Positions 7,042 through 44,652 of a stretch of DNA of 64,000 nucleotides are shown here, piece by piece. A model generated the notes under the pieces. It ran no database searches. It saw only the letters and a program-made list of their open reading frames with translations, and was not told the DNA's origin. The stretch is from Parvularcula lutaonensis (GTDB lineage: Bacteria; Pseudomonadota; Alphaproteobacteria; Caulobacterales; Parvularculaceae): contig NZ_BMXU01000001.1 of NCBI RefSeq assembly GCF_014651915.1, positions 62,001 to 126,000 of the forward strand, in the 5' to 3' direction. A program made the translations under genes and the position numbers. The first letter of the stretch is position 1. Each line of letters opens with the position of its first letter.

Positions 7042-7633
7042 ACAGGACGACATGGTTGTTCGCCGGGACGCGCTCGACATGATCGAGGGTGAGAGCGAAG
7101 CGCGCACCCAGCGGTTGCAGCGTGTCGTCGAGGTCGCGAACACCCCATGCCGGATCGCGCATACGGAGCGATTCATCAAAGCGATGATTGCTCTCCTCCA
7201 TCTCGCCACGCCTGCTCATCGGGCCGTAGAGGAACAGGGCGCCGTTTTCGGGCAAGAGTGCCGCGGCGCCCCGGAACAGGTTCTCGTAGCCGGCGATCGA
7301 GGTGATGTGGATCATGTTGATCGCGACTATGGTGTCGACCGGCCTTTCGACCGCCTGCCACCAGCCATCGCGGCGAGTATCAAAACCTTTCGCTTCAGGC
7401 TGTCCAAGCTCGGCCATGCGAGCGGTGCTGCTTGCGCGGGCCGCACCGTCGGGGTCTGAGGCTTGCCAGTGGAGATTGGGCATTCGTGCGAGAACGGCCT
7501 CGGCATGCTCGCCAGTTCCCGAAGCCAGTTCCAGAACCCGCTCCGCATACGGACAAAGCCGTGCAAAGGCTTCAGCGATGATCTCCTTGTTGCGCGCGGC
7601 GCTGGTCGAATAGAGGCGCGGGTCGTCGGTCAT
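7022..7633 (-). CDS. DUF938 family SAM-dependent methyltransferase-like protein
   Basis: This 203-aa class I methyltransferase-fold protein is of unknown substrate. The SAM-binding motif is VLELASGTGEHAEAVLARMP, followed by the acidic WQASDPD at the end of strand 2. INMIHITS and the ending VPANNHVVLFRR are typical of DUF938 proteins, which are widespread in proteobacteria but poorly characterised. Two adjacent ATGs occur at 7636 and 7633; the second is preferred because GGAG lies 5 nt before it. The gene converges on rsmD with overlapping 3' ends. Its promoter region abuts the tRNA gene transcribed the other way. Confidence 0.85.
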   Translation of the reverse strand: MTDDPRLYSTSAARNKEIIAEAFARLCPYAERVLELASGTGEHAEAVLARMPNLHWQASDPDGAARASSTARMAELGQPEAKGFDTRRDGWWQAVERPVDTIVAINMIHITSIAGYENLFRGAAALLPENGALFLYGPMSRRGEMEESNHRFDESLRMRDPAWGVRDLDDTLQPLGARFALTLDHVERVPANNHVVLFRRTGR

Positions 7634-7686
7634 CATCTCTCCGGCGTTGACTTGGGCGTGGCCCGCGACCAAATTCGAAGGCCGCG

Positions 7687-7760
7687 GCGGGTATGATGTA
7701 ATGGTAGCCTGTCAGCTTCCCAAGCTGAACGCGCGGGTTCGATTCCCGCTACCCGCTCCA
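7687..7760 (+). tRNA. tRNA-Gly (anticodon CCC)
   Basis: The 74-nt cloverleaf has acceptor arms GCGGGTA and TACCCGC, an anticodon stem TCAGC/GCTGA enclosing TTCCCAA (anticodon CCC), a T-arm GCGGG-TTCGATT-CCCGC, and an encoded 3' TCCA. It reads GGG glycine codons. Confidence 0.96.
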
Positions 7761-7780
7761 TTCCCTGACGGTTTCGCTTG

Positions 7781-8827
7781 TCAAAGCGCGGAGAGGACTG
7801 CGTCGAGAGCATCTTTCGTGCTGGCGGAGCCGCCGAGGTCATGGGTGCGGAGCCCGTCCGCGAGGCACCAGGCTACGGCTGCTTCGATGGATGCCGCAGC
7901 GGTCTCTTCGCCCGCTGAATGGCGCAGCAGCATCGCCGCCGAGAGGATGGCGCCTATGGGGTTGGCGATGCCCAGGCCTGCGATGTCCGGGGCGCTTCCG
8001 TGGATGGGCTCGTAAAGGCCGGGCTTGCCTGCCTCGCCCAGCGACGCGGAAGGCGCGAGGCCGATCGATCCGACCACCGCAGAAAGCTCGTCCGAGAGAA
8101 TGTCGCCAAATAGGTTCTCGGTGACGACCACGTCAAAGCGTGAAGGGTGGGTGACGAGATGCATGGCCATCGCATCGACAAGGACATGCTCGAGCCTTAC
8201 GTCGGGATAGCTCTTGTGGACGTCCTCCACCACGCCGCGCCAGAGACGGGACGTGGCGAGGACATTTGCCTTGTCGACCGAGGTCAGCAAACCCTTGCGG
8301 CCGCGCGCCGCTTCGAACGCCGTTCGCGCAACCCGCTCGACCTCTTCGCGGGAGTAGGGGAGGCGGTCGAGCGCCCTGTCGCTCCCTTCTTCACGTTCAC
8401 CGAAATAGAGGCCTCCCGTCAGTTCACGGACGACCAGGATGTCTGTGTCCGCGACCACGCTCTTCCGGAGAGGCGAGGCTTCTTCCAGCCCCTCGAACAG
8501 GCGGGAGGGACGGAGGTTCGCGAAGAGACCCATCTCTCGCCTCAGGGCGAGGAGTCCGGCTTCGGGACGCGGGGCGCCTTTCTTCGCGGCCTCGTCGTAG
8601 CGCGGGCCACCGACGGCGCCGAGCAGGACAGCATCCGCCCCAAGGCACGCTTCGAGCGTCGCAGGCGGCAGGGGGTCGCCATACTGGTCGATGGCAGCAC
8701 CACCAAAAGCATGTTCTTCTGTATCAAGAGCAATATTCGAGGATGCGCAGGCGGCGCGCAGGACCGTGACAGCTGTTTCGCAGACCTCGGGGCCAATTCC
8801 GTCGCCGGGCAGGATCACGACCTTCAT
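7781..8827 (-). CDS. leuB: 3-isopropylmalate dehydrogenase LeuB
   Basis: This 348-aa enzyme oxidatively decarboxylates 3-isopropylmalate with NAD+ in leucine synthesis. It has the IPMDH nucleotide and metal motifs: GDGIGPEV at the N-terminus, LRREMGLFANLRPSRLF with the substrate Arg residues, RELTGGLYFG, DKANVL, the metal-binding FGDILSDE, and the NAD-binding GSAPDIAGLGIANP. The Asp in FGDILSDE and the adenine-pocket sequence fit NAD rather than NADP use. It is the last gene of the ilv-leu operon and overlaps leuD by four bases (ATGA). The tRNA-Gly gene lies just beyond its stop on the other strand. Confidence 0.96.
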   Translation of the reverse strand: MKVVILPGDGIGPEVCETAVTVLRAACASSNIALDTEEHAFGGAAIDQYGDPLPPATLEACLGADAVLLGAVGGPRYDEAAKKGAPRPEAGLLALRREMGLFANLRPSRLFEGLEEASPLRKSVVADTDILVVRELTGGLYFGEREEGSDRALDRLPYSREEVERVARTAFEAARGRKGLLTSVDKANVLATSRLWRGVVEDVHKSYPDVRLEHVLVDAMAMHLVTHPSRFDVVVTENLFGDILSDELSAVVGSIGLAPSASLGEAGKPGLYEPIHGSAPDIAGLGIANPIGAILSAAMLLRHSAGEETAAASIEAAVAWCLADGLRTHDLGGSASTKDALDAVLSAL

Positions 8828-9402
8828 GACATGGATCCCGCGCGTTGTTCGAAGGCTTCGATCTCGGGCAGGGCATCGAGCAGGACACCGAGCGGGTCCT
8901 TGCCTTCAAGGAGGCAAAGCCGGGCGAAGGCTTCGGTCTCGAACCGCTCGACATGGTTGCCAAAGCGGATCTCGTTGTCCTCGAGGTCGATCGTCACCTC
9001 GGTTGCCGGTTGCTCCATCAGCAGGGTGAGGGTCTCCGGGCTGACCTGCACGGGGAGAAGACCGTTCTTGAGGGCATTCGACCGGAAGATGTCACCGAAG
9101 GAGGTTGAGACCACTGCATCGAAGCCAAAGGCCTTGAGTGCCCAGGGAGCATGCTCGCGAGAGCTGCCGCAGCCGAAATTGTCGCCTGCCACAAGGATCC
9201 TTTCAGCCTCTCGGTCGGAGTGGTTGAGGGGGTGGTCCGTCTTCTCGCCGTCCTGGCCGTAGCGCCAATCGTGGAAGCAGTATTTCCCGAGGCCCTCGCG
9301 GCCGGTCGTCGTCAGGAACCGTGCAGGAATAATCTGGTCCGTATCGATATTGCTCTGGGGCAGGACGAATGTCCTGCTGGTGAGCGTGCGGAACGCCTCC
9401 AT
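8824..9402 (-). CDS. leuD: 3-isopropylmalate dehydratase small subunit LeuD
   Basis: This 192-aa small subunit forms the swivelling domain that completes the active site of isopropylmalate isomerase together with LeuC. Typical features are the start [18 protein letters not shown], the NIDTDQIIPARFL motif, and the substrate-recognition loop GDNFGCGSSREHAPWAL, whose Ser-Ser-Arg contacts the substrate carboxylate. The length is normal. It overlaps leuC by one base (TGATG) and leuB by four, indicating tight translational coupling. Confidence 0.96.
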   Translation of the reverse strand: MEAFRTLTSRTFVLPQSNIDTDQIIPARFLTTTGREGLGKYCFHDWRYGQDGEKTDHPLNHSDREAERILVAGDNFGCGSSREHAPWALKAFGFDAVVSTSFGDIFRSNALKNGLLPVQVSPETLTLLMEQPATEVTIDLEDNEIRFGNHVERFETEAFARLCLLEGKDPLGVLLDALPEIEAFEQRAGSMS

Positions 9403-10802
9403 CAGGCAGCCCTCCTTCTGATCGCGGAAGCATCGCGAATGAAGCCTGCAACAGCACTGGCGGCCGCGGTTGCAGGGCTGGCCAGCACCGTTCTCACACC
9501 TTCGCCCTGCCGCCCCCGGAAGTTGCGGTTCGACGTGGAGACCACGAGCTGGCCCGGCTCTCCCTTGTCACCATTCATGGCGATGCACATCGAGCAACCG
9601 GGTTCGCGCCACTCGGCTCCTGCTTCCTTGAAGACGAGATCGAGCCCTTCGGCTTCGGCATTGCGCTTGACCTCTTCGGAACCGGGGACAACCAGCATGG
9701 TGACGCCATCTGCCACTTTCCGCCCACGGAGGATGGCAGCCGCGGCACGCAGGTCCTCGATTCGGCCATTTGTGCATGAACCCACGAAGACGCGGTCAAC
9801 CGGAACGGAGCTGATGGGTGCGCCTGCGCTCAGCTGCATGTAATCGAGCGCAGACGCACTCGTTAGGTCACCCGGCAGAGGAACGAGGGACGATGCCGGG
9901 ACCGCCTCATGGGGGCTGACACCATAGGTGACCATGGGCTGGAGCGCCGAGGCGTCTATCGTGATTTCCTTGTCGAAGACGGCGTCTTCATCGGTCGACA
10001 GGCTCAGCCATTCGTCACAGGCCGAGACGAAGTCCGCGGGAACGCCTTCACGTCCCTGAAGGTAGGCAAGGGTCACGGCGTCCGGCGCGATCATCCCGGC
10101 CCTTGCGCCAGCTTCGATCGACAGGTTGCAGAGCGTCATCCGACCTTCCATGGAAAGCCCCCGGACTGCAGGGCCTGCATATTCGATCACATGGCCCGTT
10201 CCGCCATCCATGCCGAGTTCGGCGATGACGGCGAGGGCCATGTCCTTTGCCGTGACGTCGGCAGGAACCTCGCCCTCGAACTGCACACGGAGTGTTTTCG
10301 GCTTGCGCTGGAACAGGCACTGGGTTGCCAGAACATGGCCGACCTCCGTCGTGCCGATCCCGAAGGCGAGAGCGCCGAAAGCGCCATGGGTGCTGGTGTG
10401 GCTGTCACCACAGACAACGACCATCCCGGGATGGGTGCGGCCGAGCTCCGGCCCGACCATGTGCACGATGCCGCGGCGCGGGTCGCCAAGGTCCAGAAGT
10501 TCGATCCCGTGCTCCTGGCAGTTCCAACGCAAACGCGCGACCTGCTCCTCCGCTGCCTTGGTCGTGTAGGCGAGACGCCCCTCCTTTGCAGGAAGGGTCG
10601 GTACGGAGTGGTCGATCGTGCCGAGTGTCAGATCGGGCCGCCTGACTTTGAGCTTGCGCTCAGCAAGCGTCGCGAAGGCCTGGGGGCTGGTCACTTCATG
10701 GATCAGGTGCAGGCCGACATGCAGGATTGCGGGCCGGTCCTCTCGTTCCTCCGCAACGACGTTCCGTTCCCAGACCTTGTCGAAAAGCGTCTTCCCGCTC
10801 AT
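9402..10802 (-). CDS. leuC: 3-isopropylmalate dehydratase large subunit LeuC
   Basis: This 466-aa aconitase-superfamily subunit carries the catalytic 4Fe-4S cluster. Two of the three cluster cysteines are in CTNGR-type and GCSMC contexts: [16 protein letters not shown], then [13 protein letters not shown]. The [21 protein letters not shown] segment is the other family signature. With LeuD it converts 2-isopropylmalate to 3-isopropylmalate. Its start overlaps the end of leuA by four bases, and its stop shares one base with the leuD start. Confidence 0.96.
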
Positions 10803-11983
10803 GCCGTTGCCACCACGCGGTTCGATGCACCCGCCACGAGCGTCCGCAACTGGTCGTCGGTGACCTCATGGAACTCGTCGGCCAGGTGCTTGAAGGCAAT
10901 GAACAGCGCTTCGCGCGCATCCACAGGGACATCGTGCCCGAGCTCTTCCAGGCGGGCGAAGAGCGCATGCTTGCCGGAGTGCTTGCCGAGAACAAGGCTG
11001 CTGACCGGGGCGCCGACATCCTGTGGCTCCATGATCTCGTAGGTTCTCCGGTTGCTGAGCATGCCATGCTGGTGGATGCCGGCTTCGTGGGCGAAGGCGT
11101 TGCGGCCGACGACGGCCTTGTTGCGCTGGACCTTCTCCCCGGTGATGTCCTCAAGGGTGCGTGAGGCCTCGTAGAAACGTCGGGTGTCGATGCCTGTCTG
11201 GACCTCATAGGTATCACGGCGGGTACGGAGCGCCATGACAGCCTCCTCCATGGCGCAATTGCCTGCGCGCTCGCCGATGCCGTTGATGGTGCATTCGATC
11301 TGGCGAACGCCCGCCCGGACCGCAGCGAGGCTGTTGGCGACGGCCATGCCCAGGTCGTCATGGCAGTGGGTCGAGAACACAACGTCGTCAGACGGCTCCA
11401 CAGCCTCGATGAGGTAGCGGAAGACCTCGAATGTTTCCTCGGGCGTAAAGTAACCCACCGTGTCCGGAACGTTCAGCGTGCTAGCCCCCGCCTCGGCTGC
11501 GGTCTTGAGGCATTCGGCGAGGAAAGTTTTCTCCGTCCGCATGGCGTCTTCGGCGGAGAACTCCACATCCTCGAACAGCTCTCTTGCGTAGCGCACGCCG
11601 TGGTCGATCGCGTCGAGGACTTCGCCCTTGCGCATTTTCAGCTTGTGCTCCCGGTGTGTGGGGCTCGTGCCGATGAAGACGTGGGCGCGCTTGCGCGGCG
11701 CTGCGGCAAGAGCTTCCGCCGCAATGTCGATGTCCCTTTCGGTCACGCGGGCGAGGGAGCAGACGATCGGGCCGTCCGCCTCTTCTGCGATCGCCTTGAC
11801 CGCTTCGAGGTCGCCCGGCGAAGCCGCAGCAAACCCAGCCTCTATCACATCGACGTTCAGCGCCGAGAGCACCCTGGCCATCCTCAGCTTACCCTTCATG
11901 GTCATGGAAAAGCCGGGGCTCTGCTCTCCATCCCGGAGAGTGGTGTCAAAGATCCGAACGTGGGAGGGCGGGTGATAGGTCAT
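10799..11983 (-). CDS. leuA: Short 2-isopropylmalate synthase lacking the C-terminal regulatory domain
   Basis: This 394-aa TIM-barrel Claisen condensation enzyme is expected to join acetyl-CoA and 2-oxoisovalerate. The catalytic barrel is complete: [13 protein letters not shown] (residues 12-24), the metal ligands in [27 protein letters not shown], and the linker helix [10 protein letters not shown]. The protein stops after the linker subdomain, at ETSVxx-like VVATA, whereas the usual leucine-feedback-regulated LeuA has about 100-130 more residues. The stop is real in the sense that leuC begins inside it (ATGA overlap), so this does not look like a frameshift. Its position with leuCDB argues against a homocitrate or citramalate synthase, but those remain alternatives. 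Confidence 0.88.
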
Positions 11984-11992
11984 GATCTCTCC

Positions 11993-13273
11993 TCAGTAGT
12001 TCGCAAGTTCGACATCGAGTCCTTCCGCACGCAGAGCGCCGATGATGCGGTCCATGTGCTCGGGTCCCGTGGCCTCGACGGAAATGTCGAGATGGGTTTC
12101 CTTGGCGGGCAAGTCGTTGAAGACCTTGTGATAGGCAACGTCGATGACGTTCCCCCCTGCCTCTCCAATGGCGGCGGAGACGCGGGTCAGCTGTCCGGGA
12201 ACGTCCATCAGGGCGATGCGCAGGCGGGCAAGTCGTCTTTGGCGCGCAAGGTCGCGCATCAGGATTGATGACAGGAGTCGGGCGTCAATGTTTCCGCCGC
12301 AGATGACGCTGCCAACTTTCCGGCCAGTGAACAGGGTCGGGTGGGCGAGTATCGCCGCTAGCCCTGCGGCCCCTGCACCTTCGGCAAGGGTCTTCTGGGT
12401 GCTGAGGAGAATGGAGAGAGCCCGTTCGAGGTCGCGTTCCTCCACCATGACGATCTTGTCGACCAGTTCGGCCACCACCTGCCGGGTCAGGCGACCTGGG
12501 CGACAGACGGCGATCCCTTCGGCGAGGGTCATCCCCCCGCACGGCCTTGCCGCTCCGTGGACGGCATTGAGCATACCCGGATAGAGTGCGGCCTGCACGC
12601 CGATGATGCGGATATCGGGGTTGAGGCTCTTCGCCACCGACGCCATGCCTGCTATCAGGCCGCCCCCGCCAATCGGCACGACGAGGGTGTCGATGTCGGG
12701 CACCTGCGCGAGCATTTCCGCGGCGATGGTGCCTTGGCCTGCGCAGACGTGGGGATCGTCAAAGGGATGAACGAGGGTCAGGCCTTGTTCCTTGATGAGA
12801 CGGTCGGCCTCCTCGCTGGCCGTGTCGAAGCCGTCGCCGTGCAGGATGACCTCGGCACCGAAGCGCCGGGTTTCCTCGACCTTCACGGAAGGCGTATGCG
12901 CAGGCATGACAATCACGGCACGGATGCCCAAAAGCTCCGCGTGCCGCGCAAGACCCTGGGCATGGTTGCCGGCAGAGGCGGCGATGACGCCGGCTGCGCG
13001 CTCGGCTTCGGTCAACGACAGCAGCTTTGCCAGCGCGCCGCGTTCCTTGAATGCCCCGGTGACCTGCATGTTCTCGTACTTGAAATGCAGGTCGCAGCCC
13101 GTGAGGGCAGACAGCTTGGTGCTTTTCAGGCACGGCGTCTGGGCCACACGGGACCAGGCCGGGTCATGCTTGCCGATGACCGCCAGCCAGTCGGCATCGT
13201 CCAGCCCGAGCGGGTTGGCAGGCGGCGCGGGCGCTACGGACGGCTCGGCGACCGCTTCAGATGACAGCCGCAT
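11993..13273 (-). CDS. ilvA: Threonine dehydratase (biosynthetic type, single ACT domain)
   Basis: This 426-aa PLP enzyme deaminates threonine to 2-oxobutyrate, the first step towards isoleucine. The PLP lysine is K76 in VTGAFKERGAL, and the phosphate-binding glycine loop is PIGGGGLIAG. The last ~80 residues (LRIALMDVPGQLTRVSAAIGEAGGNV...) form a single ACT-type domain, the usual site of isoleucine feedback. ATG 13273 is chosen because AAGGAGAT lies 5 nt upstream; the frame is open further upstream but that stretch overlaps ilvM in a non-coding-looking register. It overlaps ilvM by 17 bp and is followed by leuA after 9 bp. Confidence 0.93.
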   Translation of the reverse strand: MRLSSEAVAEPSVAPAPPANPLGLDDADWLAVIGKHDPAWSRVAQTPCLKSTKLSALTGCDLHFKYENMQVTGAFKERGALAKLLSLTEAERAAGVIAASAGNHAQGLARHAELLGIRAVIVMPAHTPSVKVEETRRFGAEVILHGDGFDTASEEADRLIKEQGLTLVHPFDDPHVCAGQGTIAAEMLAQVPDIDTLVVPIGGGGLIAGMASVAKSLNPDIRIIGVQAALYPGMLNAVHGAARPCGGMTLAEGIAVCRPGRLTRQVVAELVDKIVMVEERDLERALSILLSTQKTLAEGAGAAGLAAILAHPTLFTGRKVGSVICGGNIDARLLSSILMRDLARQRRLARLRIALMDVPGQLTRVSAAIGEAGGNVIDVAYHKVFNDLPAKETHLDISVEATGPEHMDRIIGALRAEGLDVELANY

Positions 13274-13580
13274 GGGGGATCTCCTTCCAGCGACTCGGTT
13301 TCTCCCGGCTGCGGCGCTCGAGCTTGACGTGGCGGACATTAACGAGACGCTCGATCTGCAGGCGGAGGGTCTCGACAGACCGGCCCTTCCCGGTCGGTGA
13401 AACCTGCACGCGGGTCTCGACGCCACCTTCGGTCTCCTCGACCAGGAGTGAACGCACCGACCAGCCCCTCTGCTCAATGACTGTCCAGATCCGGCGAAGT
13501 GTCCCGTTCACGTCGTCCGAGATAATCGTGAAAGTCTCGATCGTTCCCCGGCGGGTGTTGGGGTTGATGTGCAGGCTCAT
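13257..13580 (-). CDS. ilvM: Acetolactate synthase small (regulatory) subunit, short form
   Basis: This 107-aa ACT-domain protein (ETFTIISDDVNGTLRRIWTVIEQRG, then VETRVQV and LRLQIERLVNVRHVKL) is encoded directly behind the large subunit. Its length is close to IlvM and clearly shorter than IlvN/IlvH proteins of about 160 residues, because the second C-terminal domain is absent. It should stabilise or activate the large subunit and may mediate valine sensitivity. It overlaps the large-subunit gene by four bases and ilvA by 17, so all three are coupled. The name ilvM is given on size and context. Confidence 0.85.
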   Translation of the reverse strand: MSLHINPNTRRGTIETFTIISDDVNGTLRRIWTVIEQRGWSVRSLLVEETEGGVETRVQVSPTGKGRSVETLRLQIERLVNVRHVKLERRSREKPSRWKEIPHAAVI

Positions 13581-15289
13581 CGTCCGCCCTCCATCATTTC
13601 GCTGTTTGACTTGCCCGGCGCGACCAGCGGCCAGACATTCTCGGCCGGGTCGATGATGACGTGCATGAAGATCGGCCCTTCAGCGGCGAGCAGCCGGTCG
13701 ATCCCGGCTGCAACCTCCGAGCGCCGGGAGACCGTGAAGGCCTCTATGCCGAAAGCCTCCGCGACCTTCGCGAAATCAGGGTTATCGGACAGGTCGATCT
13801 CGGAGAAATTGCCATCGAAGAAAAGCTCCTGCCACTGACGGACCATGCCAAGGCGTGAATTGTTCAGAACGATAACCTTGAGGGGGATGCCGTACCGCCG
13901 GAGGGTGGCAAGCTCCTGGATGTTCATCATGATCCCGCCGTCGCCGGAAATCGACACGACCGTGCTGTCAGGTTCGGCAAGCTGGGCGCCGATGGCTGTT
14001 GGCAGGCTGAAGCCCATGGAGCCGAGCCCGCCCGAGGTCAGGTGAGCCTCGGGTCGGGAGAAATGGCAGTGCTGTGCCACCCACATCTGGTGCTGGCCGA
14101 CATCGGGCACAGCGACGAAGCGGTCGCCCGCCGCGAGGGACAATTCGCGCAAGAGAGTGGGGGCATACACTCCCTCTCCCGGGGCGTCGTATCGGGGCGC
14201 AAACTCCTCGCGACGGGCAATTCCGAGCTGGACCCAGGCGGAAATGTCACCGGGCTCGGGGTTGAGGCTGCGAACGGCCGGGCGCATCGCGCCGTGTACG
14301 GACACGTCGGCGTGGCGCAGCTTGGAAATCTCGCTGGCATCGCAGTCGAAATGGATCACCTTGGCGTGGGGGGCAAAGGTATCGAGCTTGCCGGTGGCGC
14401 GGTCGTCGAACCGCCCGCCGATATTGATGAGGAGGTCGCACTCCTGCACCGCCAAGTTGGCTGCGCGAGCACCGTGCATTCCGATCATGCCGAGAAGCTG
14501 GGGGTGATCCGTTGGCAGCACGCCGTTTCCGTGGAGCGTGCACACGGCTGGGATGCCAGACCGCTCGACGAGGGCGCGAACATCACCCGTAGCGCCTGCG
14601 CGGGTGATGCCGCCGCCGAGGTAGAAGAGGGGCTTGTCCGCATCACGAATGGCAGCCTCGGCGCGGCGCAATCCGTCATCGTCAAGTTCGATGACCTGCG
14701 CCTCGCGCGCGGGGGAGGTGGCGGCTTTTGCCATCGCCTGCTGAACGTCCTTGGGCAGATCGATCAGGACGGGCCCTGGACGGCCGCTCTCGGCGACCTC
14801 GAAGGCCTCGGCGAAGACACCCGGAATATCTGCGGCATCCCGGACGATATAGCTGTGTTTCACGATCGGCATGGTGATGCCGAAAGTGTCGACTTCCTGG
14901 AAGGCGTCGGTCCCCATCACAGGCTGGGCAACCTGCCCGGTGATCGCAATCATCGGGACCGAGTCCATGTAGGCGTCGGCGATTCCCGTCACGAGGTTCG
15001 TAGCTCCGGGGCCGGAGGTTGCAAGGCAGACGCCGGCCTTCCGTGTCATCCTTCCGTAGGCGGCCGCGGCAAAGGCCGCGCCCTGTTCGTGGCGGCAGAG
15101 GATATGGCGCAGGCCCGAGCCAGGGAGGGCGTCATAGACCGGCATGATCGCGCCGCCCGGATAGCCGAAAACGGTGTCGACCCCTTGCGCAAGGATTGCT
15201 TCGACGACGAGCTGCGCCCCTGATCGCGGCGCGGCTTCGGTGTCGGCCTCTTCGCTCTCTGTCAGGGTTTCAGCGGCGGAACCTGTCAC
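13577..15289 (-). CDS. ilvG: Acetolactate synthase large (catalytic) subunit
   Basis: This 570-aa thiamine-diphosphate enzyme condenses pyruvate with pyruvate or 2-oxobutyrate, the first common step to valine, leucine and isoleucine. The N-terminal domain has VFGYPGGAIMPVYDAL and the catalytic Glu in RHEQGAAFAA. The C-terminal cofactor site is SGDGGIMMNIQELATLRRYG followed by VIVLNN. It starts at GTG, overlapping the stop of the 42-aa ORF by four bases. The symbol could equally be ilvB or ilvI; ilvG is used because of the short partner subunit next to it. Confidence 0.94.
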   Translation of the reverse strand: MTGSAAETLTESEEADTEAAPRSGAQLVVEAILAQGVDTVFGYPGGAIMPVYDALPGSGLRHILCRHEQGAAFAAAAYGRMTRKAGVCLATSGPGATNLVTGIADAYMDSVPMIAITGQVAQPVMGTDAFQEVDTFGITMPIVKHSYIVRDAADIPGVFAEAFEVAESGRPGPVLIDLPKDVQQAMAKAATSPAREAQVIELDDDGLRRAEAAIRDADKPLFYLGGGITRAGATGDVRALVERSGIPAVCTLHGNGVLPTDHPQLLGMIGMHGARAANLAVQECDLLINIGGRFDDRATGKLDTFAPHAKVIHFDCDASEISKLRHADVSVHGAMRPAVRSLNPEPGDISAWVQLGIARREEFAPRYDAPGEGVYAPTLLRELSLAAGDRFVAVPDVGQHQMWVAQHCHFSRPEAHLTSGGLGSMGFSLPTAIGAQLAEPDSTVVSISGDGGIMMNIQELATLRRYGIPLKVIVLNNSRLGMVRQWQELFFDGNFSEIDLSDNPDFAKVAEAFGIEAFTVSRRSEVAAGIDRLLAAEGPIFMHVIIDPAENVWPLVAPGKSNSEMMEGGR

Positions 15290-15414
15290 GGCGCGCTCCC
15301 CATGAAGAAAGCGAAGTCCGTGCCTTGGGCTTCACGGCGCGGCTTGGTGGCGCGCGCAGGCTTCAAAGGTTTGGCTGCCGGCTTTTTCGCCGACCGTTTT
15401 TCCTCGGCCATCAT
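15286..15414 (-). CDS. Uncharacterised 42-aa basic protein embedded in the ilv operon
   Basis: A tiny frame fits exactly between ilvC and the acetolactate synthase gene, overlapping each by four bases (ATGA at its start, GTGA at its end). The start MM is preceded by GGAG at 5 nt. The peptide has a Lys/Ala/Pro/Arg-rich first two thirds (KRSAKKPAAKPLKPARATK) and an ending with aromatic residues, TDFAFFMGSAP. I recognise no family. The coupled overlaps and the ribosome-binding site argue for real translation. Removing it would leave a 121-bp hole in an operon where every other junction is 9 bp or less. It could be a regulatory or accessory peptide, or just a coupling ORF. Confidence 0.55.
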   Translation of the reverse strand: MMAEEKRSAKKPAAKPLKPARATKPRREAQGTDFAFFMGSAP

Positions 15415-16439
15415 GCGGTCTCCGCATTGTTCGCGCCCGGACCAGCATTCAGCCAGCTCATCTGGGCGCGGAGCTGACGGCCGGTCTCCTCGATCGGATG
15501 CTCGAGATCGGCGCGCAGCATCTGGTTGTAGGACGGCTTCCCGGCCTGGTTCTCGATGATCCAATCGCGGGCGAAGTTGCCGTTCTGGATATCCTTCAGC
15601 ACGGCGCGCATTTTCTCGCGGGAGTTCTCATCCACGACACGGGGACCCGATTTCAGGTCGCCATAGATCGCGGTCTCGGAGATGAACTCGTGCATCTTTG
15701 CGAGGCCGCCCTCGTGAAGCAGGTCGACGATCAACTTCAACTCGTGCAGGCATTCGTAATAGGCGAGCTCTGGCGGGTAGCCTGCCTCGGTCAGGGTTTC
15801 GAAGCCCATGACCACGAGTTCCGTCGCGCCGCCGCAAAGGACGGCCTGTTCGCCGAAAAGATCCGTCTCCGTTTCATCGCGGAAGCTGGTCTCAAAGAGC
15901 GCGGCTTCGGTGCCGCCGATCGAGTCGGCATAGGCGATGGCCTTGTCTTTCGCGGTGCCACTTGCGTCCTGATGGACAGCGAAGAGGCAGGGAACACCGC
16001 GGCCCCGCTCGTATTCGCGACGAACGAGGTCACCGGGGCCCTTGGGAGCAACGAGGATCACATCGATATCCCGAGGTGGCGTGACGAGACCATAGAGAAC
16101 CGAAAATCCGTGGGCGAACATCAGTGTGTTGCCTGGCTCCAGGCCGGGAGCGACAGCATTCGCGAAGATTTCCTTGTGCGCCATGTCCGGCGCGGTGAGC
16201 GCGATGAAATCGCCTTCCTTCGCTGCGTCCTCGGGACTCATCACACGAAAGCCGTCCTCTTCAGCCTTGTGCCAGGAGGGGCCACCTTTCCGGGCACCGA
16301 TGATAACCTCGCGTCCTGAATCGCGGGCATTCATCGCGTGGGCGCGGCCTTGGCTGCCATAGCCGATCACGGCGATGACCTTGCCCTCGAGAACGGGTTT
16401 CACGTCTTCTTTGGTGTAGGCCTTCAGGGTGTTCGCCAT
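15411..16439 (-). CDS. ilvC: Ketol-acid reductoisomerase (class I)
   Basis: This 342-aa enzyme performs the alkyl migration and NADPH-dependent reduction of acetolactate or acetohydroxybutyrate. The N-terminal Rossmann domain has GYGSQGRAHAMNARDSG (about residues 26-42). The knotted helical C-terminal domain has the Mg-binding residues in FETSFRDETETDLFGEQAVLCGG and YECLHELKLIVDL, plus the ISETAIYGDL signature. The length is that of class I enzymes. It starts 3 bp after ilvD ends and its stop overlaps the start of the 42-aa ORF. Confidence 0.96.
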   Translation of the reverse strand: MANTLKAYTKEDVKPVLEGKVIAVIGYGSQGRAHAMNARDSGREVIIGARKGGPSWHKAEEDGFRVMSPEDAAKEGDFIALTAPDMAHKEIFANAVAPGLEPGNTLMFAHGFSVLYGLVTPPRDIDVILVAPKGPGDLVRREYERGRGVPCLFAVHQDASGTAKDKAIAYADSIGGTEAALFETSFRDETETDLFGEQAVLCGGATELVVMGFETLTEAGYPPELAYYECLHELKLIVDLLHEGGLAKMHEFISETAIYGDLKSGPRVVDENSREKMRAVLKDIQNGNFARDWIIENQAGKPSYNQMLRADLEHPIEETGRQLRAQMSWLNAGPGANNAETA

Positions 16440-16442
16440 TGC

Positions 16443-18104
16443 TCAGTATCCTTCTGTTGTGGTGGCGCCGCGACTCGCAGAGGAGGCGAGGCGGGCATAT
16501 TTGTCGAAGACGCCGCCGAAACGGCGCGGCTCGCGCTGGGGCTGCGCACCGGCGCGGGCATCCCAGTCGATGTCTGCATCAATGCGGCGGACGTCTGCAT
16601 CGATCTCGATGATGTCGCCCTCGGCGAGGAGGCCGATAGGCCCGCCCATCGCCGCTTCGGGTGCGATATGGCCGATGACGAAGCCGTGGCTCGCGCCGGA
16701 GAAACGACCATCCGTCATCAGAGCGACCTTGCCAGCAAGGCCCTGTCCGGCGAGGGCGGCGGTCACGGCCAGCATCTCCCGCATTCCCGGACCGCCGCGC
16801 GGCCCCTCGTTCCGGATGACAACGACGTCGCCTTCCTTGATTTCGCAGGCCTGCACGGCGGCGAAGGCGTCTTCCTCGCATTCGAAAACGCGGGCCGGGC
16901 CACGAAAGACGGCATTGTCATAACCGGCCGTCTTGAACACCGAACCTTCGGGGGCGATGTCGCCATAGAGAATGCGGATGCCGCCCTGCTTCTTCACAGG
17001 GTTCGACACTGGACGGACGACTTGCTGACCGGGCGTTTCCTCAGCGAGATCCAGCTCGCCGAACAGCGACCGCCCACTGACGGTCGGGGTGTCCTCCAGA
17101 AGCCCCGCTTCACGCAGCTTCTGGCCGAACAGCCGACCGCCGCCGGCCGCGAAGAGGTCCTGGGCCAGGAACCGGCCGCCGGGCTTCATGTCGGCGATCA
17201 CCGGGGTCTCGCGGCTCAGCCTATCGAAAATCTCGATATCGAAGGGTACACCCGCTTCGGTCGCGATGGCGGCGAGGTGGAGGACGGCGTTGGTGCTGCC
17301 GCCCGAGGCGACCACGGAGACGGCTGCATTATGCAGGCTCTCCTTCGTGACGTAATGGCGCGCGCCTTTGCCGAGCGCGTTCTCCGCGACCAGGCGGCCA
17401 CAGCGTTCTGCTTCGGCACTTTTGCGAACGTCCGTCGCGGGAACATCCCCTGCGCCGAAAGGTGCAAGGCCAAGGAAGGCCAGCGCCATCGCCATGGTGT
17501 TGGCCGTGAACTGGCCACCGCAAGCACCTGCACCGGGGCAGGCTGCTTTCTCGACCTGCTCGAGTTCGGCGTCATCGATCTTACCCTGGCCGTGGGCACC
17601 GACGGCTTCGAAGGCATCCTGGATCGACAGCTGGCGTTTCCCAAGGCAACCTGCCGCTATCGTCCCGCCGTAGAAAATCACGCCGGGTACGTCGCATCGC
17701 GCCAGCGCCATGGCGGCAGCAGGAAGGGTCTTGTCACAGCCCACCATGACCATTGCGGCATCAAGGGCGTGACCTCGGACGACCAGCTCCACGCAATCCG
17801 CGATCACCTCGCGGCTGACGAGGCTGGCGCGCATCCCTTCATGGCCCATGGTGATGCCGTCCGAGACAACCGGGGCGCCGAAGGTCATCGGCCAGCCACC
17901 CGCCGCGCGGATGCCCTCGACCGCAGGTTCGGCCAGGGCGCCCAGATGCATGTTGCACGGTGTGACGGTTGAGTGGGTGTTGACCAGCGCGACCAGCGGA
18001 CGGTCGAAATCCTCGTCGGTCATGCCCGTCGCGCGCAACATGGCGCGCGCTGCGGCCCTGTCGGGGCCTTTGGTGATCTGGTCGCTGCGTTTTCTCGTGG
18101 TCAT
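16443..18104 (-). CDS. ilvD: Dihydroxy-acid dehydratase
   Basis: This 553-aa Fe-S enzyme dehydrates dihydroxy acids to the 2-oxo precursors of valine and isoleucine. The cluster cysteines are visible: C50 in [22 protein letters not shown], and [15 protein letters not shown]. The C-terminal [21 protein letters not shown] is the substrate-binding signature. It is the first structural gene of the ilv-leu operon and begins about 25 bp after the leader terminator. No good Shine-Dalgarno is visible before the ATG (the preceding bases are GCCCCAA). Confidence 0.96.
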
Positions 18105-18129
18105 TTGGGGCTTTGGCTGGGTTCAGGTC

Positions 18130-18155
18130 AAAAAAAAGCTCCCCGTCGGGGAGCT
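18130..18155 (-). terminator. Attenuator terminator in the ilvD leader
   Basis: On the minus strand AGCTCCCC and GGGGAGCT form an 8-bp stem around a 3-nt loop, followed by eight T residues. It lies between the Leu/Ile/Val-rich leader peptide and ilvD. The 5' arm can alternatively pair with GGGAGC at 18191-18196 inside the last leader codons, which would prevent the terminator from forming when a ribosome stalls upstream. This is the classic attenuation geometry. Confidence 0.85.
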
Positions 18156-18177
18156 GGTGATCGGTTGCTGATGACAG

Positions 18178-18291
18178 TCAGTCCGATGCCGCTCCCGCAG
18201 GGCTGTTGCTAATAAGGAGTACAAGGACGATCGGCAGCACGCCTTCCGAAGAAGGGCCGGTGAGGTTCGAAACGGTCACGGTCGTCGCCAT
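18178..18291 (-). CDS. ilv operon leader peptide (attenuator sensor)
   Basis: A 37-codon frame lies upstream of ilvD on the same strand. Codons 18-27 read Val-Leu-Pro-Ile-Val-Leu-Val-Leu-Leu-Ile, so nine of ten consecutive codons call for the three products of the downstream operon. An in-frame TGA lies shortly upstream of the ATG, so the frame cannot start earlier. The stop is 23 bp before the terminator stem. Codons 32-34 contain GGGAGC, complementary to the 5' arm of the terminator. Stalling on the Leu/Ile/Val run would leave that segment free to act as antiterminator; translation to the stop would mask it. No strong Shine-Dalgarno is visible. Confidence 0.82.
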   Translation of the reverse strand: MATTVTVSNLTGPSSEGVLPIVLVLLISNSPAGAASD

Positions 18292-18385
18292 GGTCTTGGA
18301 GCCGCTCTTTTGCCGTCAGGCGCTGCGTTAGCCTTAGGTATCACCACTACTGCTGCGGCGCAACAGGAAACTGGCAGAAGCCTGC
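18292..18385 (-). promoter_or_regulatory. Presumed promoter region of the ilv-leu operon
   Basis: The ~95 bp between the gltB terminator and the leader ATG must hold the promoter if the operon is transcribed independently. No clear -35/-10 pair could be read with confidence, and there is no other gene in this stretch. Confidence 0.35.
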
Positions 18386-18413
18386 AAAAAGATGGTTAAC
18401 ACTGCATCTTTTT
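18386..18413 (-). terminator. AT-rich hairpin behind gltB, probable terminator
   Basis: Arms AAAAAGATG and CATCTTTTT form a 9-bp stem around a 10-nt loop, 34 bp after the gltB stop. The T-run on either strand would give a terminator-like end. It separates gltB transcription from the ilv leader, which runs in the same direction. Confidence 0.55.
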
Positions 18414-18446
18414 GCCATGCACATGATTTCGGTTGGCGTTATCCAC

Positions 18447-21400
18447 TTACGCCTTCGCGCGCGCCGTGGGTTCCGCGTCATTCGCTGAGTTGCGCTCTTG
18501 TGCTTTAGGAAGAACAAGACGGAACAAGGACTTAGCCTCTTCCCAACGGCCCAGGAGCTCCTGGCCCAGTGTGCTTCCCGTCTCATTGACGTGGCGTTCC
18601 AGAAGGGCGCGGCAATCGGGCTCCATGTGACCGAGGGGCACCCAGACCACGTGCTCTGGATTGGCCAACGCATCGAGCGCTCCGTGTTCGTCATAGACGA
18701 AGGCACGGCCTCCGGTCATGCCGGCTGCGAAATTGTCACCGACCGGGCCGAGGATCATCACGGTACCACCCGTCATGTACTCGCAGCCATTGGCTCCACA
18801 GCCTTCGACCACTGCCGTCGCCCCTGAATTCCTGACCGCGAAGCGCTCGCCTGCACGGCCCGCGACGAAAAGCGAGCCAGAGGTCGCGCCGTAGAGGCAA
18901 GTGTTGCCTGCCAGGACGAAACCCTTGCCGCCTTCGCCCTTGAAGCCACGGATGACGATTTCAGCACCGGACAGGCCCTTGCCGACATAGTCATTGGCAT
19001 CGCCCTCGACCTCGATCCTCAAACCCTCTGCACCGAAGGCTGCGAGGGACTGGCCAGCAGAGCCGAGCAACCGCACCGTCAGATGGCCGGCGGGAAGGCC
19101 GCCGAACTGGCTGACGATGTGATGACTCGTCCGTGTGCCAACAGCCCTGTGGGTATTCTTCACCGTGTAGGTGAGCTGCATCTTCTCGCGGCGCTGCCAA
19201 ACCGGCGCTGCGTCGGCGACGATCTGCTCGTCGAGGGTCGGATCGACTTCCTTGCGGCCCTCGCGCGTGGAACGGGGAGGCCGGGGGCCCTCATCGGCGC
19301 GAACCAGGACCGGGTTGAGGTCGAGGTCGTCGAGGAAGTCGGGACCGCGGCTGAACTGGCGAAGGAGATCCGAGCGCCCGATCACGTCTTCGAGGCTCCT
19401 GACGCCGAGGCCTGCAAGGATTTCGCGCACTTCCTCGGCGATGAACGTCATCAGGTTGACCACGTGATCCGCGGTACCGACGAATTTCTCGCGCAGCGCC
19501 TGGTCCTGTGTGCAGACACCGACGGGACAGGTATTGGAGTGGCACTGCCGCACCATCAGGCAACCCATGGCCACGAGCGACAGGGTTCCAATGCCGAATT
19601 CCTCGGCACCCAGCATGGCCGCAATGACGATGTCGCGGCCTGTGCGCAGTCCGCCATCGGTCCGCAGGGTAACGTCTTCGCGCAGGTCGTTGAGGGTCAG
19701 GACCTGGTTGGCTTCAGCAAGACCCAGCTCCCACGGGCTGCCGGCGAACTTGATGGAGGTCTGCGGACTCGCGCCCGTGCCGCCGACATGTCCCGAGATC
19801 AGGATCGCATCCGCCTTGGCCTTCGCGACACCCGCGGCGATCGTACCGACGCCCGCCGAACTCACGAGCTTCACGCAGACGCGCGCCTTGGGTGCGATCT
19901 GCTTCAGGTCGTAGATCAACTGGGCGAGGTCTTCGATCGAATAAATGTCATGGTGTGGAGGAGGCGAGATCAGTGTCACGCCTTCGGTCGCATGGCGCAG
20001 CCGCGCGATATAGGCATTGACCTTGAAGCCGGGCAGCTGTCCGCCTTCGCCGGGTTTTGCGCCCTGGGCGACCTTGATCTCGATTTCGCGGCACTGGTTG
20101 AGGTATTCCGCCGTCACGCCGAAACGGCCGGATGCCACCTGCTTGATGGCCGAGTTCATGTTATCGCCGTTGGGCAGGGGGGTGTAGCGGTCGCGGTCCT
20201 CGCCACCTTCTCCGCTCACGGATTTTGCTCCGATGCGGTTCATGGCGACATTGAGAACGCCGTGTGCCTCCGGGCTCAAGGCGCCGAGGGACATTCCGGG
20301 CGTTACGAAGCGTTGGCGGATGGCGTTGATGCTCTCGACCTGATCGACAGGGACGGCGTCCCCGAACTGCCGGAACGTCAGGAGATCGCGCAACTGGATC
20401 GGCCCCTCTTCCGCTAGTGCTTCCGAGAACCGTTTGTAAGCGGTGTAATCATTTTCGCGCACGGCCTTCTGGAGGTCCGCGATCATCTTCGCCTGATAGG
20501 CATGGCGCTCGCTCTCGGCGCGCACCCGATAAAAGCCGCCAACCGGCAGCCGGGTTACGCCGCCATCTTCGGGCCAGGCCTTGGCGTGGAGAGCGAGACC
20601 TTTCTTCTCGAGACCTTCGAGCCCGATACCGGAAATCCGAGACGAGGCGTCGGGGAAGAACTCGGCAAGCAGGGTGCGCGAGAGGCCCAGCGTCTCGAAG
20701 TTACAGCCCCCTCTGTAGGCGGAGAGAACTGAAACCCCCATCTTGGACAGGATCTTCAGGAGACCGTTCTCGACGGCAGTCTTGTAGGCCAGGCATGCTT
20801 GCCCCAGCGTCTTGCCGGGGTAGCGGCCTGCGGCGTGGTGGTCCGCGATCGTGTCAAAGGCGAGGTAGGGACTGACGCAGGTCGTCCCCACACCGATCAG
20901 GACGGCAGCATAGTGGCTGTCGACGCATTCCGCCGACCGCACCGTGAAGGAGCATTCGGAGCGCAGGTTGGCCTCGATCAGGCTGCGATGAACGCCGCCT
21001 GCTGCAAGGATCATCGGCACGGGAAGGCGATCAGGGCCCTGCGCCTCATCCGAGAGCACCACGTGGCTGTGTCCGGCCCGGACGGCATCGCAGGCCTGTT
21101 CGCGGATGCGCTCGAGGGCTTCGTGGAGCGCGCGGCCCGAGCCGTCTGCATCCTTGTAGGTGCAGTCGATGACTTTCGCGCCGAGGCGCCGCTTCATCCG
21201 CTCATACATCCCGTTGGTCAGAATCGGGCCATCGAGAACGAAAACGTCTGTCTGCGTCTCATCCTGTGCAAGGATGTTTCCCAGGTTCTTGAAGCGTGTC
21301 TTCAGCGACATGACCCGGCCTTCGCGCAACGGGTCGATGGGCGGATTGGTCACCTGGCTGAATCGCTGGCGGAAATAGTGCGAGAGCGGACGGTATTGTT

Positions 21401-39527: not shown

Positions 39528-41549
39528 TTGAACGCACGCAAGTTTTTTGCGGCGGCACTGCCCCTGTGCCTGCTGCTAACAATCGCGCTCGCCCAGACGG
39601 AGGTCGATGGAAGGCAGGTCTTTGAACCGCGCTTCTTCGAGCGTTTTGCGCCCCAGACGGCCCTCGACATGCTGCGCCGGGTGCCGGGTTTCTCCGTTCG
39701 CAACAACAGCGATGGCCGCGGCCTCGGGCAGGGCGGCACCAACGTCCTGATCAATGGTCAGCGTGTCACTGCAAAGGATACCGGCCCGCTCGAAATCCTC
39801 GGCAGGACCCCGGCGAGTTCTGTCGTCCGTATCGAGATTTCCGACGCCGCGAGCCTCGGCGTCACCGGCCTGACCGGGCAGGTCGCGAATGTGGTGACCG
39901 AGCAGGACAAGCTGACGGGCAATTGGGAGTGGAACCCGCAGTTCCGCCACGGCCTGCCGCCACGCCTCCATGCAGGTTCAGTGTCCTTCAGCGGCAAGGC
40001 AGGCGGAATGGCGTACACGGTGGGCCTCGAAAGCAGCCCCTTCCGCAACGGTAATCGAGGCCCCGAATACGTCTTCGGGCCAGATGGGGAGCTGACCGAA
40101 ACCCGGTATGAGGACGGGCAGTTCTTCGGTGACCGACCGTCGATCACGGTGAACCTCTCCGGCGGCAAGAAGGAGACGCTTCAGTACAACTTCACCGGCT
40201 CGGGGGTTCTCTTCGAGTTCGACGGCCGGGAAATTTCCCAGCGTCCCGACGATTTCGTCCGTGTCAACCGCAACAGTGAGGACGAGTGGAACGCTGAAGT
40301 GTCAGGCGATCTTACCAAGACGATTGGCCCCGGGGATGCGAAGATCATTGCCTATCACCGCTACGAACACAGCCCATTCGTCAACGAGTTGCAGGCATTC
40401 GACACCGGGACCCTTCTGCAGACGGATCACTTTTTCCAGACCTCTGACGAGACAGAGACCATCGCGCGCGTGGAATACGCGATCCCGCGGCCCAAGGACC
40501 GGTCATGGGAGCTGGCGGCCGAGTACGCCTTCAACAGCCTCGATAACGAAAGCGCTTTCGCGACGGATGGGAGCGGGACGGTGGTCCGCACGGATTTCGA
40601 CGATGTCGAAGTGACCGAGGACCGGATCCAGTCATCCGTCACTTACAGCCGCAAGATCGGCCCGAAACTCGCGTTCCAGGGCTCCCTCGGCTCTGAATAT
40701 TCCGAGATCCAGTCCCGGACGGGGACGGTCGAGGGTGAGCCGCGCAGCTTCTTCCGCCCGAGGGGGTTCGTCAGCCTCGCCTATCCATTTGGAGAGGACA
40801 TGGACATCAGGGCGCGGATCGAACGCTCTGTAGGCCAGCTCAATTTCTTCGCTTTTGTCAGCTCCCAGAACCTCAATGACGAGACGACGCAGGCAGGGAA
40901 CACCAATCTCGTCCCACAGCAGTCATGGGATGGCGAACTGGAGGTCGAACGCCGCTGGGCAGAAGAGGAAAAGGTTGTCTTCCGCACCACGTTGTCTCTC
41001 ATCGAGGACCGCGTCGACAATATTGTCATCGACGGTGAGGAGGCTGTCGGCAACATCGATGAGGCGCGCCAACTCTCGCTCGAGGTTGAAGGCACGACGC
41101 TGCTCGACCGTTGGGGGATCGAGGGTGGACGCGTTGATTTCCGCGGTGAGCGGAACTTCAGCGAGATCGACGACCCACTGACCGGTGAATCGCGACCCTT
41201 CTCGGGCCAGCTGCGCTACTTTGCAAACATCGGCTTCCGCCAAGACATTCCCAATACGGACTATGCCTATGGCGCGGAGATCACCCACCTCGAGTTCGAG
41301 AACCGCCCGCAGGCGCTGCAGACCAGCTTCCAGAGCTTCAGCCAGCCGCAGACCGAGATCTTCATCCAGCACAAGGATTTTTTCGGGCTGAACGTGACTG
41401 GCTACGTGGTAAACCTGCTCGACATGGACGAGCGGTTCGAGCGCACGGTCTATGACGGCTTTCGCGACCAGTCACCCGTGCTCTTCCGTGAAGCGCGTTC
41501 ACGGGATTACAAAGCCATCGTCGGGTTCAATGTGCAGGGGACGTTCTAG
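39528..41549 (+). CDS. TonB-dependent receptor-like outer-membrane protein, paralogue 1
   Basis: This 673-aa protein starts at TTG (GGAGC 8 nt upstream), with a signal peptide ending at IALAQ. A plug domain follows: FFERFAPQTALDMLRRVPGFSV, GRGLGQGGTNVLINGQRV, VVRIEISDAASLGVTGLTGQVANVV. The remaining ~530 residues alternate in the manner of a beta barrel and end in an aromatic residue (VQGTF). It is the most divergent of three paralogues in this region and the one on the left of nuoE. The substrate is unknown; no siderophore, vitamin or sugar-use gene is adjacent. Confidence 0.85.
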   Translation: MNARKFFAAALPLCLLLTIALAQTEVDGRQVFEPRFFERFAPQTALDMLRRVPGFSVRNNSDGRGLGQGGTNVLINGQRVTAKDTGPLEILGRTPASSVVRIEISDAASLGVTGLTGQVANVVTEQDKLTGNWEWNPQFRHGLPPRLHAGSVSFSGKAGGMAYTVGLESSPFRNGNRGPEYVFGPDGELTETRYEDGQFFGDRPSITVNLSGGKKETLQYNFTGSGVLFEFDGREISQRPDDFVRVNRNSEDEWNAEVSGDLTKTIGPGDAKIIAYHRYEHSPFVNELQAFDTGTLLQTDHFFQTSDETETIARVEYAIPRPKDRSWELAAEYAFNSLDNESAFATDGSGTVVRTDFDDVEVTEDRIQSSVTYSRKIGPKLAFQGSLGSEYSEIQSRTGTVEGEPRSFFRPRGFVSLAYPFGEDMDIRARIERSVGQLNFFAFVSSQNLNDETTQAGNTNLVPQQSWDGELEVERRWAEEEKVVFRTTLSLIEDRVDNIVIDGEEAVGNIDEARQLSLEVEGTTLLDRWGIEGGRVDFRGERNFSEIDDPLTGESRPFSGQLRYFANIGFRQDIPNTDYAYGAEITHLEFENRPQALQTSFQSFSQPQTEIFIQHKDFFGLNVTGYVVNLLDMDERFERTVYDGFRDQSPVLFREARSRDYKAIVGFNVQGTF

Positions 41550-41561
41550 CGTCCCCCGCGC

Positions 41562-42218
41562 TTACGCTGCGTCGGTGTTCGGCAGCTTGGTGAGCGGTTT
41601 CGCCTGCTCACCCTTGTAGATTTCGTCGCTGGTCAGGGTCGTGTTCTCGCCCTCGGGGTCGGAGGTGTGACGGCCATCATTGAAGACGCCCGGCTCCACA
41701 TATTCGCCGCGGTCAAGCTTCATGAGGATATCCCGGAAAATCTCGGGCGTGAGGTCCTGGTAGTAGTAGTCGTTGATCTGGACCATTGGCGCGTTGCAGC
41801 AGGCACCCAGGCACTCGACCTCTATCCATGACAGATTGCCCGAGGGAGTGATCGTGTTCTGGGGGCCGATCACGTCCTTGCAGACCTCCACGAGGTCCTC
41901 CGCGCCGCGGAGCATGCAGGGCGTCGTGCCGCAGAGCTGGACGTAGTATTTCCCGACCGGCTTGAGGTTGAACATCGTGTAGAATGTCGCGACCTCGTAG
42001 ACCCGGATGTAGGGCATATCGAGCTGCTTGGCGATCGTTTCCATCGCCGCGATCGACACCCAGCCTTCCTGCTTTTGCGCACGCCACAGGAACGGGATCA
42101 CTGCCGAAGCCTGTCTGCCTTCGGGGAACTTCTTGATCTGTTCCTCGCACCACGACTTGTTCTCGGGGCTCCATTCGAAGCTGTCGGGTTGTTGGCGCGA
42201 AGGGGTGCGTTCAGCCAT
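41562..42218 (-). CDS. nuoE: NADH-quinone oxidoreductase subunit E (NuoE)
   Basis: This 218-aa thioredoxin-like subunit of Complex I holds the N1a 2Fe-2S cluster. Its ligands are C96 and C101 (QLCGTTPCMLRG) and C136 and C140 (VECLGACCNAP). The VYEVATFYTMFNL segment is also conserved. It has a C-terminal extension of about 45 residues, usual in alphaproteobacteria. It lies alone between TonB-receptor paralogues 1 and 2, which are on the opposite strand; no nuoD lies upstream and no nuoF directly downstream. Confidence 0.95.
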   Translation of the reverse strand: MAERTPSRQQPDSFEWSPENKSWCEEQIKKFPEGRQASAVIPFLWRAQKQEGWVSIAAMETIAKQLDMPYIRVYEVATFYTMFNLKPVGKYYVQLCGTTPCMLRGAEDLVEVCKDVIGPQNTITPSGNLSWIEVECLGACCNAPMVQINDYYYQDLTPEIFRDILMKLDRGEYVEPGVFNDGRHTSDPEGENTTLTSDEIYKGEQAKPLTKLPNTDAA

Positions 42219-42351
42219 CTTGAAAAGCCGTCTCCTACTCGAAGCCTGCCTAAAGCCGGACACGGGCGAATTGTCCAGATGCTGCGGCGAGAACCTTGCT
42301 CGCGAGGGCTGCCATCTTACTTGGACGAACGATGCCGCAACACAGTTTTCG

Positions 42352-42365
42352 TTACGCAAGCGTAA
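42352..42365. promoter_or_regulatory. Perfect inverted repeat upstream of TonB-receptor paralogue 2
   Basis: TTACGC-AA-GCGTAA lies 92 bp before the TTG start of paralogue 2, in the divergent region shared with nuoE. Related sequences with ACGCAA half-sites occur before the CitE-like gene and before the exosortase gene. Confidence 0.35.
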
Positions 42366-42457
42366 GCTTGGAGCGGCCAGATGACCGGTGTTATTGGCTC
42401 CCAGTTATGAACCAGAAAGCGCCGGGACGAAGCGCGTCGGTTCACCGGAGGAAAGTC

Positions 42458-44506: not shown

Positions 44507-44652
44507 CCGGATTCCTCATGTAATTTCTGAGATGTGGCGAAAACCACACTGGCATTGGCTTGTTTTTACCGGGGCATCGGTCCACCCTTCTTGCCGGGCA
44601 GCGCTCTTGTTTGAGCGGCAAAGGACGGCGGGGCACGCCGCGGAGGACGACA

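Follow-up and report, generated by a model that had tools for sequence, protein, structure and literature searches.

The ilv and leu genes of Parvularcula lutaonensis lie in a single array, ilvDCGMA-leuACDB, behind a short leader that we read as a ribosome-mediated attenuator of the ilvL type controlling one operon, with a probability of roughly 0.92. The window, by which we mean the whole stretch of DNA analysed, comprised 64,000 nt of contig NZ_BMXU01000001.1 (positions 62,001-126,000, forward strand), and the coordinates of its features are collected in Table 1. An initial annotation had described a 37-codon leader with Val, Leu or Ile at nine of the ten codons 18-27, followed by an 8-bp stem with eight T residues whose 5′ arm is complementary to GGGAGC in leader codons 32-34, and every one of these elements was found in its place. 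Translated, codons 18-27 give V L P I V L V L L I; codons 18, 19 and 21-27 specify Val, Leu or Ile, so that the leader ORF carries a run of codons for the products of the operon, as ilvL-type leaders do. The leader stop codon lies at 18180-18178 on the minus strand. The exact start codon is uncertain because no match to the sigma-70 promoter consensus occurred before the leader in the window and no clear Shine-Dalgarno sequence, a weak one at best, was seen before 18291. A TTGCG-N16/17-TTAG-like block, a candidate promoter, was visible upstream in some congeners.

Table 1. Features of the leader and of the downstream genes (window coordinates)
Feature	Coordinates	Strand	Basis
Leader peptide ORF, 37 codons	18178..18291	-	ORF read from sequence; start codon inferred
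Sensing run, codons 18-27, Val/Leu/Ile at 9/10	18211..18240	-	Read from sequence
Region 2, GGGAGC, antiterminator 5′ strand	18191..18196	-	Sequence and folds
ATCGG, second antiterminator helix 5′ strand	18183..18187	-	Folds
CCGAT, second antiterminator helix 3′ strand	18160..18164	-	Folds
Intrinsic terminator hairpin, 8 bp with a loop of 3 (regions 3 and 4)	18137..18155	-	Terminator search; fold z -3.23
Unpaired part of T-run after terminator	18130..18136	-	Read from sequence
ilvD, dihydroxy-acid dehydratase	16443..18104	-	NCBIfam
ilvC, ketol-acid reductoisomerase	15411..16439	-	NCBIfam
ilvG, acetolactate synthase II-type large subunit	13577..15289	-	NF006524, 854.7 bits, cut-off 738
ilvM-like small subunit	13257..13580	-	Below curated cut-offs; position and genus conservation
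ilvA, threonine ammonia-lyase	11993..13231	-	NCBIfam; start approximate
leuA, 2-isopropylmalate synthase	10799..11983	-	NCBIfam
leuC, isopropylmalate dehydratase large subunit	9402..10802	-	NCBIfam
leuD, isopropylmalate dehydratase small subunit	8824..9402	-	NCBIfam
leuB, isopropylmalate dehydrogenase	7781..8827	-	NCBIfam

Between the leader and the first gene lies an intrinsic terminator, as in ilvL-type attenuators. Its stem, AGCTCCCC/GGGGAGCT at 18155-18137 of the minus strand, is followed by a run of eight T, one of which is paired inside the stem, and it was the only terminator-like site on that strand in the region 7500-18500. The sequence GGGAGC (18196-18191) is complementary to GCTCCC (18154-18149) of the terminator 5′ arm. 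The predicted folds added a second helix absent from the initial annotation, ATCGG/CCGAT, which sits inside the GGGAGC/GCTCCC pairing. When the RNA was folded as a ribosome on the codon run would leave it (from 18203 on, 76 nt), the antiterminator was predicted (-31.2 kcal/mol, z -2.97), with part of the terminator 3′ arm also drawn in, and when the ribosome was placed at the stop codon (RNA from 18168 on) the terminator was predicted (z -3.23). Folding with and without a ribosome footprint thus gave the outcome that had been predicted, and supports the proposal that stalling on the run favours antitermination. The fold of the untranslated full leader (164 nt) likewise ended in the terminator, its total energy being ordinary (z -0.37 versus shuffles). 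The 64-nt antiterminator stretch of the window gave z -2.68 versus shuffles. The 6-bp region 2 match of the window is not significant by itself, an equally long match being found in 8% of 300 shuffles.

The folds were extended to 71 loci of relatives and of the window (see below). Antiterminator folds showed a mean z of -3.6 and were below -2 in 64 loci, and at least five bases of the terminator 5′ arm paired upstream in all 71 when the 3′ arm was left out, although the longest match between region 2 and the 5′ arm beat shuffles at the 5% level in only 33. The mutually exclusive pairing typical of such attenuators was therefore found both in the folds and in the upstream pairing of 71/71 loci, the reach of the footprint being an estimate. 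The reach of a stalled ribosome over region 2 was judged from usual footprint sizes: with the last base of codon 27 at 18211 and the first of GGGAGC at 18196, a ribosome held up on the run would just clear GGGAGC, while one at the stop codon would cover it.

From the observed anatomy, its conservation and the predicted folds we infer termination and read-through as follows. RNA polymerase would transcribe the leader while a ribosome translates it. With charged Leu-, Val- and Ile-tRNA plentiful, the ribosome would reach the stop codon and cover region 2 (18196-18183); region 3 would then pair with region 4, the hairpin at 18155-18137 would form and transcription would stop before ilvD. With any of the three amino acids short, the ribosome would probably stall in codons 18-27, its front edge just clearing region 2, which would then be free to pair with region 3 (GGGAGC/GCTCCC plus ATCGG/CCGAT); no terminator would form and the nine genes would be transcribed. 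Since the run contains codons for all three amino acids, lack of any one of them would be expected to induce the whole operon, and leucine shortage would raise the Ile/Val genes too.

The gene order after the leader is ilvD-ilvC-ilvG-ilvM-ilvA-leuA-leuC-leuD-leuB, all on the minus strand, so that the structural genes of the matching pathway lie downstream. Overlaps of 1-4 bases occur at four of the gene junctions; the largest spacing, 121 bases between ilvC and ilvG, holds a small ORF, and the nine genes are presumably co-transcribed. Searched against its own genome, the IlvG protein gave one match (E up to 0.001). One leader appears to set the whole branched-chain pathway, and as ilvG is the single match to this synthase in the genome, lack of leucine, valine or isoleucine alone would switch on all nine genes.

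We then asked how widely the arrangement is distributed. The sample comprised 249 genomes of the order, 75 of which had a match to this ilvG type with E of 1e-180 or below; among 385 genomes of the class only two did, the window's own and one assembly with 8% contamination. With one further member of the genus (G007), the 75 loci of the order gave 76. An automatic rule requiring a leader ORF with at least six Val, Leu or Ile in ten codons, ending at most 150 bases from a hairpin with a T-run, found leader and terminator in 71 of the 76. The five misses were a locus that starts inside ilvC (L168), a masked one (L191) and three (L195, L197 and L224) outside the hairpin or T-run limits, in which run and hairpin were present by eye. 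At least seven Val, Leu or Ile in ten codons were reached in 70 of the 71 leaders and in none of 2115 random blocks put through the same rule (three blocks reached six), these blocks being taken from the same loci and mostly coding DNA, and hence not an intergenic control. Within the genus of the window, the operon and a Val/Leu/Ile leader with terminator were present in 10/10 members (in one, L039, the locus ends with the contig after ilvA), and the leader was kept with the operon in four families of the order. The conservation expected of a genuine leader was thus seen both in the genus and in the wider set. To judge from sequence comparison, it is the relatives, and not the statistics of the window, that settle the matter and lift the predicted attenuator above chance. 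They also provide about 70 natural variants with which to test the influence of region 2, codon choice and the position of the stop on attenuator sensitivity.

In a quick-method tree, IlvG grouped mostly by genus; the largest family (f5) was not one clade and several forks stayed open, so that the tree is compatible both with plain inheritance of the operon with its leader and with transfers. The loci of two f5 genera (f5g23 and f5g26, e.g. L173 and L176) showed no ilvD in the fetched stretch, the leader standing directly before ilvC. Upstream of the other acetolactate synthase type of the relatives (17 loci, L016-L032, 800 bp each), the same rule with its threshold lowered to five or more gave one locus at six, three at five and thirteen with none. 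The same leader layout was found in 11 of 16 ilvG loci from named gammaproteobacteria (L046-L061); the genome scan for named relatives returned gammaproteobacteria and others among its best 80 matches, and no near relative among them. A record labelled as a Candidatus Obscuribacter MAG (L045) contained ilvD-ilvC-ilvG-(leuA-like)-leuC-leuD-leuB, a hairpin and a Val/Leu/Ile leader lying 2954 bases ahead of ilvG; it represents contamination or else a distant relative of this operon.

Conservation of the RNA was examined within the genus and across genera. GGAGCG was invariant in 10/10 rows of the genus alignment, with GGGAGCGGCATCGG exact in six, and TCGG with CCGA of the second helix was seen by eye in 7/10. 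Leaders of the genus cross region 2 in either of two frames, and three members have a stop codon ahead of it. Being kept across two frames and beyond a stop codon, region 2 looks, as far as the alignment tells, to be under selection as RNA. Over the 71 loci there were 30 distinct longest helices, many of these being truncated or extended versions of a single GGGAGCGG/CCGCTCCC core and a few truly different; some other genera showed different helices with matching changes, for instance CGGAAGCGG/CCGCTTCCG and CGGGTTGT/ACAACCCG. When arms were swapped between genera, own arms bound slightly better overall (-15.0 versus -13.5 for foreign arms). In the genus of the window foreign arms bound better (-14.8 versus -12.7 for own), since the GAGCGG/CCGCTC core is widely shared, and the swap did not discriminate between the two. 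Neither RNAalifold on the genus alignment, which returned the terminator and a 3-bp remnant with no double-sided change, nor a structure-pair count over its ten rows gave real covariation support. The row of the window is shifted by one base against the other nine in this alignment, and the pairing cells amounted to 54.2% and 62.5% in the window's register and to 87.6% and 97.5% when slid by +1.

What most deserves pursuit is the strong bias in synonymous codons within the run. Over the 71 runs, leucine was written CTC or CTT in 275 of 328 cases (operon share 29%), valine GTA in 70 of 184 (3.9%) and isoleucine ATT in 86 of 101 (24%), operon shares being computed over the same loci from as many as six of their operon genes. 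The disparity was large in genus f3g11, with CTC/CTT at 49/56 (operon 3.5%), GTA at 12/14 (1.1%) and ATT at 12/12 (4.1%). Compared genus by genus, and the genera are not independent, the run share exceeded the operon share in 15/16 for the leucine codons (the exception being f5g34, 0/3), in 16/16 for ATT and in 12/16 for GTA, the last not significant in a sign test (p 0.08). An in-frame CTTATT was common to 45/71 leaders, and part of the bias may be plain inheritance. The 14 putatively translated codons upstream of the run showed a weaker bias (CTC/CTT 50/106).

A bias arising from pairing of the run with region 2 (a 1:2 protector helix) was considered and rejected, as 0/71 runs paired better than 90% of recodings drawn from operon usage. 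Real runs paired with region 2 worse than 90% of these recodings in 35/71 loci, so that avoidance of mispairing still competes with isoacceptor choice as an explanation. With uniform recoding as the reference, the runs showed no consistent deficit of pairing (the fraction at least as strong averaged 0.16-0.79 by genus), and CTA, TTA and TTG were nearly absent (23/328 leucine codons), though they would be expected to pair less. It is conceivable, though we would put it at somewhat under even odds, that specific tRNA isoacceptors are what the leader responds to, its run using CTC/CTT (tRNA-Leu GAG), GTA and ATT across families regardless of the codon usage of the operon. One gene was seen for each of the Leu anticodons GAG, CAG, TAG, CAA and TAA in the genome of the window. 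No tRNA-Ile(GAT) was among the tRNAs read with ARAGORN in that genome (L229-L269), perhaps as the draft assembly lacks the rRNA operons. According to the selective-charging theory, an isoacceptor of low concentration and high use loses its charge first (PMC1183508). Judged on operon genes alone, this could suit the genus of the window and not obviously f3g11: the f3g11 operon uses CTC/CTT for 3.5% of its leucines, so that the theory in its simple form would predict CTG to be the sensitive codon. The sensor may depend on a scarce rather than an over-used isoacceptor, and the bias makes the theory testable outside E. coli.

The codon bias and the RNA conservation also bear on other explanations of the leader. 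That it encodes a small functional peptide, for example a membrane or trans-acting one, with selection on the hydrophobic run, would agree with the character of that run and with the trans-acting attenuator leader peptide peTrpL (PMC7298713), but we regard it as improbable: peptide ends and the frame downstream of the run vary within one genus while the RNA is kept, and a strong synonymous bias is not needed for peptide function. A second role of the leader peptide in trans, besides attenuation, is compatible with these data. Another explanation is a T-box or other tRNA- or metabolite-binding riboswitch in which the leader RNA would be the sensor and the ORF incidental. The ilv-leu operon of B. 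subtilis is under T-box control (PMC5794164), yet in the window tRNA was the only Rfam match at gathering score, with no T-box or other leader family, only three unrelated weak matches appeared in the leader at E up to 5, and the element conserved across loci is the codon run together with the terminator, which makes this reading very improbable. Equally slim are the chances that the hairpin serves only to terminate the upstream glt genes, with ORF and complementarity coincidental, for while gltB lies upstream on the same strand and the hairpin could also end glt transcripts, leader and hairpin are kept before ilvD or ilvC in other genera without gltB in the fetched upstream stretch, the background rate is 0/2115 and region 2 is conserved as RNA.

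The attenuator reading places the leader beside several known systems. The ilvL leader before ilvGMEDA in enterobacteria and other gammaproteobacteria likewise has a Leu/Val/Ile run upstream of acetolactate synthase II (PMC6123439), Shewanella ilvG being among such cases (PMC2659441). Gammaproteobacterial leaders of this type likewise have a G-rich region 2 in the last leader codons and a GC hairpin with a T-run. In E. coli, however, ilvG comes first and leu genes are absent from ilvGMEDA, whereas in the window ilvD comes first and leuACDB is included; and the run uses mostly GTG and ATT in enterobacterial loci, in place of the CTC/CTT, GTA and ATT of the window's group. The attenuator of E. 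coli leuABCD likewise has Leu codons and serves the leu operon alone (PMC6123439). In Caulobacter crescentus, ilvBN has a leader CDS with tandem Ile/Val codons and a rho-independent terminator (PMC4117421, which cites Tarleton 1994); this is the other acetolactate synthase operon, and the excerpt of that source mentions no leu genes and names no Leu codons. In S. aureus a fused ilv-leu operon lies behind one leader peptide rich in branched-chain amino acids and a terminator before ilvD; the excerpted account of this Gram-positive system names Ile and Leu codons and not Val, has the proposed antiterminator pair with the poly-U tail and adds control by CodY (PMC5794164). The proposal that one leader controls a fused ilv and leu operon stood as to gene order, a single transcript being probable, while the novelty attached to it is weaker than claimed, the S. 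aureus attenuator and C. crescentus ilvBN being on record. Very probably the leader is a well-conserved further case of classic attenuation, a known mechanism in another bacterial group and with another operon composition. Among the literature matches listed, judged by title and start of abstract and with subscription papers outside the search, no account of this leader in this order was found.

No convincing second attenuator was seen inside the operon in nine gaps of five congeners (L033, L034, L036, L037 and L038) or in the ilvC-ilvG gap of the window. The small ORF of the latter gap (about 15286-15414, minus strand) is basic, ends in DFAFFMGSAP and abuts ilvG, and counterparts ending in MGSAP or MGCAP were present in L033, L036 and L038 (by a simple rule, 4/10 genus members including the window). 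The ilvA-leuA gap of L037 (oriented 9140-9265) holds a short ORF with consecutive Leu codons but without a visible terminator; it may be a remnant or another leader. Elsewhere in the window, at 39528-46695 on the plus strand, three long ORFs (39528-41549, 42296-44506 and 44560-46695, with a minus-strand ORF between the first two) share motifs such as FERFAPQTA and GRGLGQGGTN, and may be paralogous outer-membrane receptor-like proteins.
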